A stretch of 64,000 nt of DNA, from positions 67,001-131,000 of the forward strand of contig QCOF01000003.1 in NCBI GenBank assembly GCA_003209915.1, in the 5' to 3' direction. Origin of the DNA: Pelagibacteraceae bacterium AG-430-E20 (GTDB lineage: Bacteria; Pseudomonadota; Alphaproteobacteria; Pelagibacterales; Pelagibacteraceae). The translations under genes and the position numbers were made by a program. Every line of letters begins with the position of its first letter. Within the stretch, counting starts at the first letter, position 1. The notes under the pieces were generated by a model. It was not told the DNA's origin and made no database searches. It was given only the letters and a program-made list of their open reading frames with translations. Below are positions 60,323-64,000 of this stretch, piece after piece.

Positions 60323-61108
60323 ATGAGTTTGATGAAAGGAAAAAAAGGATTGGTGATGGGAGTTGCCAATGAAAGATCTATTGCTTGGGGTATTTCACAA
60401 AAACTAGCAGAAGCTGGTGCAGAGCTTGCATTTACTTATTTAGGTGATGCTCTAAAAAAAAGAGTAATTCCACTAGCTGAAAAATTAAATTCAAAAGTTA
60501 CATTTAGCTGTGATGTAGAAAGAAAAGAAGATGTAACAAAGTTATTTGAAGATATTAAATCGCAATGGGGGGAAATTGATTTTGTAGTTCATGCAATTGC
60601 ATTTTCTGATAAATCAGAATTGTCTGGTGAATATTTAAATACGACTAGAGAAAACTTTTTAAGAAGTATGTTAATTTCATGTTTTTCATTTACGGAAGTT
60701 GCAAAAGAGGCAACTAAAGTAATGAAGGAGGGTGGAAGCTTAATCACATTAAGTTATGAGGCGAATAAAGCTATTCCAAATTATAATGTAATGGGTGTTT
60801 GCAAAGCTGCACTAGAATCTAGTGTTAAGTATTTAGCAAGAGATTTAGGTGCTAAAGGCATGAGAGTTAATGCAATAAGTGCAGGACCTATTAAAACTTT
60901 AGCAGCTTCAGCCATTGGAGATGCAAAATTCTTATATAAATGGAATGAAGACCATTCTTTCCTTAAAAGAAATGTAGATATTCATGATGTTGGAAATTCA
61001 GCACTATATCTACTAAGTGATCTTGCAAACGGTGTCACTGGTGAAATTCACTATGTAGATGCTGGATATAACAAGGTTGGGATGCCAGATCCTAAGAATA
61101 TTAGCTAA
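60323..61108 (+). CDS. fabI: Enoyl-ACP reductase (NADH), FabI
   Basis: A 261-residue short-chain-dehydrogenase-type reductase completing each fatty acid elongation cycle. The NAD site is GVANERSIAWGIS (residues 13-25). The catalytic pair is Tyr154 and Lys161 in PNYNVMGVCKAAL, with Tyr145 before it, the FabI spacing. The last 425 nt (60684-61108) are repeated at 61496-61920. The final 171 nt before the last codons are identical to that copy, while the preceding 242 nt differ at about 26 sites, nearly all synonymous. A hairpin with a downstream T-run follows. Confidence 0.97.
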   Translation: MSLMKGKKGLVMGVANERSIAWGISQKLAEAGAELAFTYLGDALKKRVIPLAEKLNSKVTFSCDVERKEDVTKLFEDIKSQWGEIDFVVHAIAFSDKSELSGEYLNTTRENFLRSMLISCFSFTEVAKEATKVMKEGGSLITLSYEANKAIPNYNVMGVCKAALESSVKYLARDLGAKGMRVNAISAGPIKTLAASAIGDAKFLYKWNEDHSFLKRNVDIHDVGNSALYLLSDLANGVTGEIHYVDAGYNKVGMPDPKNIS

Positions 61109-61137
61109 AATATAGTTAAATTTAGTTAAAAATATTA

Positions 61138-61174
61138 GGGGCGTTCTGATGCCAGGTGCCCCTTAATTCTTTTT
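61138..61174 (+). terminator. Hairpin A after fabI, probable terminator
   Basis: GGGGC at 61138-61142 pairs with GCCCC at 61158-61162, extended by G-U and flanking A-T pairs (TTA/TAA), and TTAATTCTTTTTT follows. It would end the fabABI transcript and lies 15 nt before the convergent small-protein stop. The 25-nt core GGGGCGTTCTG...TGCCCC is closely repeated as hairpin B at 61451-61475 on the other side of that gene. Confidence 0.65.
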
Positions 61175-61176
61175 TA

Positions 61177-61383
61177 TTAACTTTTAATTAACTCTAAAGC
61201 TTTATTCAATAATTCTTCAGATTTTGCATGATCTCCAGCTTCATGAGCCTTCATTCCCGCATCTCGCATTTTTTGAATTTCTTCGATTTTGCTATCCAAA
61301 TTTTTGACCATCATTGGACATGAACCAGCATATGCTGAGTTAGAAAAAAGTATTAACATTGATAAAATTAAAAATTTTTTCAT
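61177..61383 (-). CDS. Small exported helical protein
   Basis: A 68-residue protein with a clear signal peptide (MKKFLILSMLILFSNSAYA, cleavage before Gly20), leaving ~49 residues that start GSCPMM and form charged helices (MRDAGMKAHEAGDHAKSEE), like half of a helical hairpin repeat. Function unknown. I chose the ATG at 61383 because the signal peptide starts there; the 22 extra upstream codons look random. It lies inside the unusual insertion between fabI and its displaced 3' copy, framed by hairpins A and B, and carries AAGGAAAA upstream as ribosome-binding site. Confidence 0.7.
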   Translation of the reverse strand: MKKFLILSMLILFSNSAYAGSCPMMVKNLDSKIEEIQKMRDAGMKAHEAGDHAKSEELLNKALELIKS

Positions 61384-61450
61384 ATTTTTCCTTTTGTTGT
61401 AATTATGATTAGCACTCTCTGAAAAATTAAACTTATAAATGATTGTCACA

Positions 61451-61475
61451 GAGGCGTTCTGTTACCGAATGCCCC
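61451..61475. repeat. Hairpin B, homologous to hairpin A
   Basis: GAGGCGTTCTGTTACCGAATGCCCC at 61451-61475 (quoted in part: GAGGCGTTCTG ... TGCCCC) matches the core of hairpin A at 18 or so of 25 positions. Its stem GGCGTTC/GAATGCC has seven pairs including one G-U, with A8 and C5 after it. It lies upstream of the small exported gene and just before the fabI remnant. It could be the duplicated fabI terminator displaced with the copy, or a small mobile repeat. Confidence 0.5.
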
Positions 61476-61495
61476 ATAAAAAAAACCCCCAGAAC

Positions 61496-61920
61496 TTTCA
61501 TTCACAGAAGTTGCAAAAGAGGCGTCTAAAGTAATGAAAGAAGGTGGTAGCTTAATCACTTTAAGTTATGAAGCGAATAAAGCTATTCCAAATTATAATG
61601 TAATGGGTGTGTGTAAGGCAGCTTTAGAATCTAGTGTTAAGTATTTGGCAAGAGATTTAGGTGCTAAAGGTATGAGAGTAAACGCCATAAGTGCAGGACC
61701 AATTAAAACATTAGCGGCTTCTGCTATTGGAGATGCCAAATTCTTATATAAATGGAATGAAGACCATTCTTTCCTTAAAAGAAATGTAGATATTCATGAT
61801 GTTGGAAATTCAGCACTATATCTACTAAGTGATCTTGCAAACGGTGTCACTGGTGAAATTCACTATGTAGATGCTGGATATAACAAGGTTGGGATGCCAG
61901 ATCCTAAGCATATCACCTAA
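61496..61920 (+). pseudogene. fabI: Displaced 3' remnant of fabI
   Basis: This 425-nt segment aligns without gaps to 60684-61108, i.e. FabI residues ~121-261. It lacks the NAD-binding half, and the frame is closed by a TAA about 20 nt upstream, so a full FabI cannot be made; an internal ATG at 61534 would give 128 residues. By my count the first 242 nt carry ~26 differences (one amino acid change, Thr to Ser), the next 171 nt none, and the last 12 three (Asn to His, Ser to Thr). It looks like the old 3' end of fabI left behind after a related allele was recombined in. Confidence 0.85.
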
Positions 61921-61951
61921 GTTAAAAATAATTAATTACCAAAAATTTAAC

Positions 61952-61980
61952 TTGACACTTTTCTTAAAACAAAATTTACT
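61952..61980 (+). promoter_or_regulatory. Candidate promoter for a leaderless GIY-YIG gene
   Basis: TTGACA at 61952-61957 is a consensus -35 box. After exactly 17 nt comes TTTACT (61975-61980), matching four of six -10 positions. Transcription would begin at about the ATG at 61987, giving a leaderless mRNA. No Shine-Dalgarno precedes the ATG, in agreement with this. It indicates the gene is transcribed separately from the fabI remnant. Confidence 0.5.
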
Positions 61981-61986
61981 AATTTT

Positions 61987-62649
61987 ATGTCAATGAAACT
62001 TTATGTGTCACCATCTTATTCAGAATTAGATGAATACATTACAATATCAAAGAGTGGTTTTTTTTTCTCTGCAGATTTTATGGAAAAAAACAAGCTTACA
62101 CAAAATAACTATTGTCAGTTTTTTACTTCTTCGGATGAAGAATATAAATTCGGTGTTTCTTTCTCAAAAGATAAGTTAGAAGGTTCATTTGCAATCATAA
62201 ATACCTTAAGAGGAAAATATAAAGAAAAGTCAATGGCGAGAAGCACAACTGCTACTGCTTTTTTTAACAGCACTCCTATATTTAAAGAATTAGTTAAAAC
62301 TGGCTACAAGCAAAGGTTTGGTCTTAAATTTGAAAAAAATAGTAATTGTTATATTTTTAAAGTTATTCCATGCTTTGAAATTTCAAAAAAACCAGATGAT
62401 ATTCCAGATGATATTACTGGAATTTATAGATGTTTAGATAAAGACAAACATATTTTGTATATTGGAAAAGGAAATATTAAAAGCAGAGTAAAAGAGCATG
62501 ATAATAAAGGATGGGGCATTTCAAAAGTTGAATACTCAGTAATTAAAGATAATGAGTCAATGTCCAAGTATGAAAGTTATCATCTTGATCAGTATAAAAA
62601 AGAAAATGGTGCATTTCCCCCACAAAATATGGTAGGTGGAAAAAGATAA
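61987..62649 (+). CDS. GIY-YIG domain protein with novel N-terminal region
   Basis: A 220-residue protein. The C-terminal ~75 residues form a GIY-YIG nuclease fold: GIY at 145-147, YIG at 158-160 (HILYIGKGN), the catalytic Arg167 in SRVKEH, Glu196 in YESYHLDQY and a terminal Asn at 214. All key residues are present, so activity is plausible. Residues 1-140 match no family I recognise: aromatic and polar, with no Cys pairs or helix-turn-helix apparent. It lies directly behind the fabI remnant, an accessory position. It could be a homing-type or defence nuclease, or a housekeeping gene. Confidence 0.72.
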   Translation: MSMKLYVSPSYSELDEYITISKSGFFFSADFMEKNKLTQNNYCQFFTSSDEEYKFGVSFSKDKLEGSFAIINTLRGKYKEKSMARSTTATAFFNSTPIFKELVKTGYKQRFGLKFEKNSNCYIFKVIPCFEISKKPDDIPDDITGIYRCLDKDKHILYIGKGNIKSRVKEHDNKGWGISKVEYSVIKDNESMSKYESYHLDQYKKENGAFPPQNMVGGKR

Positions 62650-62695
62650 TCCCTAGAATTTTTACCCTAAGGATTAAAGACTTTATTTTAAAATA
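62650..62695. other. Short convergent gap between the GIY-YIG gene and pnp
   Basis: A 46-nt spacer with a weak inverted repeat, AATCC (62648-62652) and GGATT (62671-62675), plus partial pairing inside. It may act as a poor terminator for either gene. I see no T-run good enough to be sure. Confidence 0.3.
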
Positions 62696-64000
62696 TTATT
62701 CAGCAGCTTGTTTCACAGAAAGTTTAACTTTACCTCTATCAAAACCAATTACTTTAACTTTTACTTCGTCACCTTCTTTGACAACGTCAGTAACTTTTGC
62801 AACTCTTTTATCTGCTAGTTCTGAAATATGAACAAGTCCATCTTGTTTTCCTAAGAAATTAACAAATGCACCAAACTCCATGATTTTCATAACTTTTCCT
62901 GAATAAATTTTATTCATTTCAGCTTTTGCAGTAATATCTTTGATCATTTGCATAGCGATGTTTCTAGAATCTTCATCAGGAGCAGCAACCGTTACAACTC
63001 CTTCATCATTTACATCTACTTTTGCACCTGATTTTTCAACGATCTCTCTAATAGTTGCTCCGCCTTTTCCAATTACAGCAGCAATGTCTTTTTTATCAAC
63101 AGTTACTTGTTCCATTTTTGGAGTGTGCTTTCCAACATCAGATCTAGATTCGCCTAAGGCTTTATTCATCTCACCTAAAATATGAATTCTTCCATCTTTA
63201 GCCTGCTTTAAAGCCTGCTCCATGATTTCAAAAGTGATCCCGGTAATTTTGATATCCATTTGAAGTGAAGTAATTCCATCTTTAGTTCCAGCAACTTTAA
63301 AGTCCATATCCCCTAAGTGATCTTCATCACCTAAAATATCTGATAAGACACTAAAATCATCTCCTTCTTTAATTAAACCCATTGCAATACCTGCAACTGG
63401 TTCTTTTATCGGAACACCTGCATCCATTAATGCTAAAGATGCTCCACAAACAGTAGCCATTGAAGAAGAACCATTAGATTCTGTAATCTCTGATACTATT
63501 CTAAAAGTATATGGAAAAGCCTCTTTTGAAGGTAATGAAGAATTGATTGCTCTCCAAGCAAGTTTGCCGTGACCAATTTCACGTCTACCAGTTCCAATTC
63601 TTCCAGTTTCACCGACTGAAAAAGGAGGAAAATTATAGTGAAGCATAAATCGTTCTCTTTGAAGACCATCTAAACTTTCAATCCTTTGTTCATCATCAGA
63701 TGTACCTAAAGTGGTTACAACAATTGCTTGTGTTTCTCCTCTAGTAAACAAAGCAGAACCGTGAGTTCTTGGTAAAACACCAACTTCACATTCGATAGGT
63801 CTTACATCAGATAATCCTCGACCATCAATTCTGTTTTTATTTTTAAGAATATCAGTTCTAACAATTTTCTTCTCTAGATTTTTAAGCTGTGAGTTAACAT
63901 CAAGATCAGAATAATTTTCATTTTCTTCAAATAGCTTTTTAGCTTTATCAGTGATTTCTGAAATCTGATTTGATCTATCTTGTTTGTCCCTGGTTGCAAA
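62696..64000 (-). CDS. pnp: Polyribonucleotide nucleotidyltransferase, C-terminal part (start outside window)
   Basis: The frame is open to the window edge, giving 434 residues of PNPase, the phosphorolytic 3'-5' exoribonuclease. The second RNase PH core has [19 protein letters not shown] and [13 protein letters not shown], and the active-site segment is [10 protein letters not shown]...[20 protein letters not shown] ([19 protein letters not shown]) and S1 ([17 protein letters not shown]) RNA-binding domains follow, ending in QAAE. The length of this part is normal. An internal ATG at 63751 is not the start, because conserved sequence continues upstream. Confidence 0.96.

Follow-up and report, generated by a model that had tools for sequence, protein, structure and literature searches.

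A two-domain GIY-YIG endonuclease gene that may spread as a homing-like element in SAR11 bacteria

A gene predicted to encode a two-part enzyme, with a DNA-cutting half behind an unrecognised front half, lies between fabI and pnp in a 64,000-nucleotide stretch of the genome of Pelagibacteraceae bacterium AG-430-E20 (hereafter, the window). Our preferred reading, tentative as it is (probability of roughly 0.45), is that the gene is a minimal mobile element of its own, resembling most the free-standing (Seg-type) GIY-YIG homing endonuclease genes. What is observed are the conserved catalytic residues, the constraint acting on both halves of the protein, the insertions of one gene at a time at unrelated places in one clade and a fabI fragment bordered by two types of junction; binding of DNA by the N-terminal domain, cleavage, the target, the gene order of the donor and cutting as the cause of the insertions are inferences. 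SAR11 are the commonest bacteria of the surface ocean and have streamlined genomes, and a nuclease travelling by itself as one gene, or flagging a locus where genes are swapped, would be a concrete handle on the turnover of their variable genes. The features of the locus are as follows:

60323-61108, + strand: intact fabI
61177-61383, - strand: ORF of 68 aa (90 aa from GTG), present in the nuclease-free allele too
61496-61503, + strand: left junction, 8-nt microhomology TTTCATTC
61496-61920, + strand: 425-bp duplicate of the fabI 3' part, in open frame and lacking the 5' half, with 93% identity to the intact gene
61952-61980, + strand: possible promoter, TTGACA-N17-TTTACT, 7 nt upstream of the ATG, found by eye and absent from the list of the scanning tool
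61987-62649, + strand: nuclease ORF, 220 aa, N-terminal domain plus GIY-YIG domain, open and intact
61987-62400, + strand: N-terminal domain, residues 1-138, predicted mostly strands with short helices, belonging to no sequence family
62416-62646, + strand: GIY-YIG catalytic domain, residues 144-220, with R167, E196 and N214 (from Pfam, fold and alignment)
62647-62676, - strand: terminator-like pnp hairpin abutting the nuclease stop codon (1 found, 0.7 expected in shuffles)
62696-64000, - strand: pnp, extending past the end of the window, named from its translation

An earlier, sequence-only reading of this DNA had described a clean frame, a complete nuclease part and, in front of it, an unrecognised region of some 140 residues at 62000-62410, and had proposed that they belong to a small nuclease family. 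All of this has been borne out. The + strand is open over 220 aa, the unrecognised region is real and takes in nearly all of residues 1-138, the nuclease part carries the invariant GIY-YIG residues and adopts the corresponding fold when modelled, and full-length relatives have been found in 25 distinct Pelagibacteraceae genomes (19 of 397 genomes at the level of the family combined with 9 of 399 at that of the genus). The fabI fragment beside the gene was absent from that reading. The mobility of the gene and the cassettes of its relatives become visible only through other genomes.

The assignment to the GIY-YIG superfamily relies on conserved residues and on fold. The Pfam GIY-YIG score of the window protein is 14.2 bits, under the curated cut-off, which one relative passes (E 3.9e-8). 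The first part of the motif reads GIYRC, not GIYxY. Residues Y147, G160, R167, E196 and N214 are invariant in all 17 aligned members, and the Arg, Glu and Asn correspond to the residues conserved in motifs B, D and E of GIY-YIG proteins as set out in part of PMC2988022, giving the protein both the GIY...YIG motif and the conserved trio by which the superfamily is recognised in sequence. The GIY-YIG part of the structural model, where pLDDT ranges from 73 to 94 across residues 141-220 (blocks of ten), matches 2lwf (Z 10.9), UvrC (9.0), T4 EndoII (7.5), I-TevI (6.8) and Eco29kI (6.6), and hence has the superfamily fold as well. To judge from the catalytic residues and the fold, the window protein would cleave DNA.

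Membership of the family was defined by an open frame of 228-275 aa, and genomes with UvrC-sized, short or stop-ridden matches were excluded from the counts (36 of 55 in the family search and 14 of 23 in that of the genus). Full-length relatives turned up in Pelagibacteraceae only, and six of them are records of uncultured Pelagibacteraceae (AG-447-P19 among others; three labelled MAG). At E up to 1e-6, a threshold that could miss a more distant N-terminal domain, 289 genomes of the class and 150 of the phylum yielded a full-length match in the window's own genome alone; the remaining 22 and 9 matches, respectively, lie mainly over the GIY-YIG part, and all but one of them are in UvrC-sized frames of 603-680 aa. 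Viral contigs held no relative of the window protein, A2, L002, L003 or the L093 gene B used as queries, and a tblastn search of phage records with the window protein gave no match up to E 1. Among the papers listed on GIY-YIG or homing endonucleases in SAR11, and on GIY-YIG together with B3, none appears to describe the nuclease family.

The nearest relative of the window protein is that of genome G152, with 73% identity. Between the two genes dN is 0.19 and dS 1.05 (NG86), the latter close to saturation; the N-terminal domain alone gives 0.19 and 1.03, and the nuclease part alone 0.17 and 1.09. Since dN lies well under dS in each part, both halves of the protein are constrained, and this difference, together with the existence of full-length relatives, makes the ORF more than a chance frame. 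In a midpoint-rooted tree of 25 sequences, the window, G152 and G338 members cluster together (100/99), separate from the other 22, with a long branch leading to G338 and a warning of uncertainty from the tree program.

The surroundings of the window gene record how it may have arrived. In genome G216 (locus L108) a nuclease-free allele is found, with the order fabI, 68-aa ORF, pnp (431 bp). The L108-like sequence of the window reaches position 61503 and the partial fabI copy begins at 61496, the overlap TTTCATTC being common to both; this octamer is present in the pnp terminator region of the nuclease-free allele and in the fabI copy. The duplicate ends 66 bp upstream of the nuclease gene, and the right flank, starting at the nuclease stop codon, agrees with L107 and L110 on their pnp side. 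The fabI fragment and the nuclease gene are in this way enclosed by one homologous and one microhomology junction. In the simplest history, a donor fragment of the order fabI-nuclease-pnp would have recombined via homology in pnp and microhomology in the pnp terminator; none of 155 relatives holds such a donor allele. Ordinary recombination could leave an identical scar at these junctions. The spacing between fabI and pnp is 40 bp at its shortest and 1,154 bp at its longest in 25 of 30 SAR11 loci (L107-L135, and the window at 61108-62696), the other five having no pnp in reach, and 15 of the 25 hold another ORF of at least 40 aa or the 68-aa ORF, the ORFs differing between genomes.

The three members of the window clade occupy three unrelated places: the fabI/pnp interval, the nurA-herA operon (G152) and the end of the tmRNA gene (G338). 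In G152 the nuclease gene sits exactly between nurA (Pfam E 5e-6) and herA (1.6e-28). In all seven related operons (L171-L177) nurA overlaps herA with no gene between them, these seven being the near relatives examined after a nurA search that matched 10 of 221 genomes, with the distant G212 and G452 left out. Because of this overlap, G152 has most simply gained exactly one gene. Both here and in the window (against L108), a solitary ORF lies between conserved genes for which gene-free alleles exist. The wider row in G152 (L031:2202-10242) resembles a defence locus, with genes for an AAA ATPase, three unknown proteins, NurA, the GIY-YIG nuclease and HerA.

In G338, the nuclease gene follows the tmRNA gene, and behind it comes a 25-bp stretch that repeats the tmRNA end with 2 mismatches. 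Small ORFs, including a 68-aa ORF, are bordered in the manner of gene cassettes by 25-bp repeats that equal or closely resemble the alphaproteobacterial tmRNA end: such repeats are found in the window at 61138-61162 and, weaker, at 61450-61479, in L142 at 1150, 1500 and 2265, and in L138 at 785 and 1499. A 22-mer of the tmRNA end (up to 2 mismatches) occurs in 97 of 99 genomes and at least twice in 43 of them, while a control with the reversed pattern gave 0. Insertion at tmRNA ends was rejected as the source of the window nuclease, because its two repeats lie on either side of the 68-aa ORF and occur in the nuclease-free L108 as well. SAR11 genomes gain genes at variable sites in any case, as the fabI/pnp interval varies without the nuclease and tmRNA-end repeats flank the 68-aa ORF.

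Apparent movement as a single gene suggests either a selfish or a defensive nuclease. The homing-like element is favoured here because solitary one-gene insertions coexist with gene-free alleles and with an intact nuclease. According to this model, the barrel-like N-terminal domain would bind a DNA site in or near a conserved neighbouring gene of a chromosome lacking the nuclease, the GIY-YIG domain would cut that chromosome, and repair off the donor copy would install the nuclease gene plus some flanking DNA. The fabI fragment and the microhomology junction fit such a co-conversion of flanks, with the reservation that ordinary recombination leaves the same scar. In T4-like phages, free-standing GIY-YIG genes sit between conserved genes, and their homing can proceed by one-sided illegitimate repair with microhomology junctions (PMC2988022, in part). 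Against homing stand the observations that no target shared by the three neighbour loci was identified, that no donor allele turned up among 155 relatives and that SAR11 genomes gain genes at such variable sites without this nuclease.

The main rival, and a real possibility, is that the protein is an anti-phage nuclease acting alone, as a restriction-like enzyme or an effector; its N-terminal domain would sense foreign DNA, and its gene would be gained and lost via variable spots. The window copy fits this poorly, as it is alone beside housekeeping genes, neither it nor L002 has a PADLOC match, and no methyltransferase or self-protection gene was noticed on reading the ORFs of 58-64 kb. On the other hand, its nearest relative is part of a nurA-herA operon and is preceded by a gene for an AAA ATPase that PADLOC and Pfam both match, and weak PADLOC matches of relatives, UzuA and PDC-S14, fall in the GIY-YIG part; a single-gene GIY-YIG defence enzyme is already known in CMoRE/PD-T4-3 (PMC12923530, in part). 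What favours the anti-phage nuclease is this nurA-herA context together with the swapping of a partner gene in the sister group.

In 20 of the 22 sister-group members, a gene of 103-124 aa (gene B) lies directly upstream of the nuclease, and 19 of these 20 also have a gene A, which measures 279-489 aa except where it is short and in many cases begins with an HTH-like segment; the two members near rmuC have neither. Their junctions read as mnmE/mnmG, recA, argG, photolyase and fabI/pnp, most neighbour names being read from translations without a search. In five pairs (L048/L095, L035/L091, L036/L039, L037/L038 and L093/L094, a count that omits pairs involving L033, L047 and L090, whose gene A is short, and L092, where none was found) the nucleases are 76-100% identical and the A proteins 21-24%, the level of most other pairs compared; gene B identity is 81-97% in three of them and 19-24% in two. 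The opposite case is L039/L040, with 80% for gene A and 53% for the nuclease. At the recA site, identity between L037 and L038 is 95.0% in the 5.8 kb upstream and 99.3% in the 8.1 kb that start 21 bp before the nuclease, and the A-B segment between is unmatched. No Pfam match of genes A and B passed a cut-off, three A/B genes had no match in PHROGs, and gene B gave a weak row for the PrlF antitoxin (E 0.055).

The position of the sister-group nuclease after two further genes is in keeping with a role in the host or in defence and counts against homing, and the wholesale replacement of the upstream gene is what would be expected of a sensor in conflict. An unlikely further reading is that this is a SAR11-specific nuclease family that, by cutting, promotes the exchange of genes at set places in the chromosome, the sister group swapping A and sometimes B and the window clade being an escaped solitary homing form. 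Nuclease genes at exchange boundaries have been reported in phages (PMC10448857, in part), and, if true, nuclease-driven exchange would mean that these streamlined ocean bacteria possess a system for swapping chromosomal genes.

The N-terminal domain has no recognised sequence relatives outside the family. All Pfam rows of the window protein at E up to 1 fall at residue 139 or later, no NCBIfam row at E up to 0.1 has its centre within residues 1-138, and the single PHROGs row for this region has an E of 0.56. The stretch ARSTTATAFFNSTPIFKELV (residues 84-103), which the sequence-only reading had put forward as a possible core motif, is none, because it ranks only 69th of 124 twenty-residue windows of the N-terminal region by conservation. 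The same reading had suggested a DNA-targeting module. Residues 15-130 of the window model (built from a 6-sequence alignment, mean pLDDT 73.8, with 50-85 in blocks of ten over residues 11-140) are closest to the B3 domain of TEM1 (7et6; Z 5.0, 91 aligned, rmsd 3.4), the remaining rows having Z of 3.0 or less. In a second model, of the relative L103 (pLDDT 79-92 by blocks over residues 21-130, with two of its five models poor at mean pLDDT 39.3 and 38.5), MraZ comes first (9r4j; Z 4.6, 99 aligned, rmsd 5.6), followed by another MraZ match (Z 4.3, rmsd 5.8) and a next row at 2.6. The two models disagree, B3 being unlisted for L103 and MraZ for the window, and all Z values of this domain for solved folds are under 8, where the tool warns that matches may reflect only a common arrangement.

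A Pfam B3 row was obtained for L003 only (E 0.056), no better than the chance-like DUF4998 (0.058) and Replitron_HUH (0.07) rows of other members; the comparison of the domain profile with MraZ by hhalign was not significant (E 0.61 over 19 columns); and a search for a two-fold internal repeat gave E 0.34, within the 0.29-0.64 obtained from three shuffles of the columns. EcoRII-N and BfiI are not among the fold matches listed, which excludes nothing. Foldseek of the L103 domain against the PDB returned nothing convincing (best E 0.31). Against BFVD it returned ten tailed-phage proteins (probability 0.89-1.00, TM 0.38-0.46 by query, one of the ten at E <0.001), the probability dropping to 0.06 at rank 11 and rising again, to 0.41, in only one row further down. 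The clearest structural similarity of the domain is hence to tailed-phage proteins of uncharacterised function, so that a GIY-YIG nuclease would here gain an unstudied domain of similar predicted fold. The top neighbour is probably an uncharacterised protein, 300 aa long, of the Salmonella phage PhiSH19 (L168:26464-27366, - strand), the CDS AER70223 (300 aa) probably being BFVD entry G8GDL7, as judged by length and phage only. The domain profile reached at best E 0.45 against 150 of the 157.8 kb of PhiSH19 and 50 of the 157.3 kb of Menlow.

In sum, a small DNA-binding barrel that targets the nuclease is plausible from the modelled B3 and MraZ likenesses, and the structural check did place DNA-binding folds on top for both models, but weakly (Z 5.0 and 4.6) and not the same one. 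It is rather unlikely, in our view, that the domain instead mediates protein-protein contacts or regulation, which would be compatible with both proposed roles of the nuclease. The weakness of its matches to solved structures, their disagreement between the two models and the unknown function of the phage proteins that are its clearest neighbours speak for this, but in each model the best-matching solved structure belongs to a DNA-binding protein. Also unlikely is a passive nuclease with another role, such as DNA repair, placed by ordinary recombination at variable junctions, for which the variable fabI-pnp interval and the neighbours of relatives (read as recA, mnmE/mnmG, argG, sbcB/rmuC and photolyase) speak, but a one-gene insertion between overlapping operon genes and so patchy a presence (19 of 397) are unlike a housekeeping gene.

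The homing-like element can finally be set beside known systems. The GIY-YIG fold is shared with the N-terminal domain of UvrC, T4 EndoII, I-TevI and Eco29kI (Z 6.5-9.0), which have other accessory domains and roles. The logic of a barrel-like DNA reader joined to a nuclease is that of R.CglI (PMC5737866, in part), although there a PLD nuclease is combined with a B3-like domain, and B3 likeness here amounts to a Z of 5.0 and a chance-level Pfam row. CMoRE/PD-T4-3 (9u75) is likewise a single-gene two-domain GIY-YIG protein and matches the GIY-YIG part at Z 5.7; in this type IV restriction enzyme, as described in part of PMC12923530, the nuclease with its GIYxY motif is N-terminal and the sensor C-terminal, whereas the window protein has a C-terminal nuclease with GIYRC and so lies outside that type. 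The closest parallel is with the Seg genes of T4, which are also solitary GIY-YIG genes between conserved genes, couple the nuclease to an extra domain and show signs of transfer with their flanks (PMC2988022, in part); unlike them, the window gene resides in a cellular SAR11 host, and its extra domain is N-terminal and of another kind.
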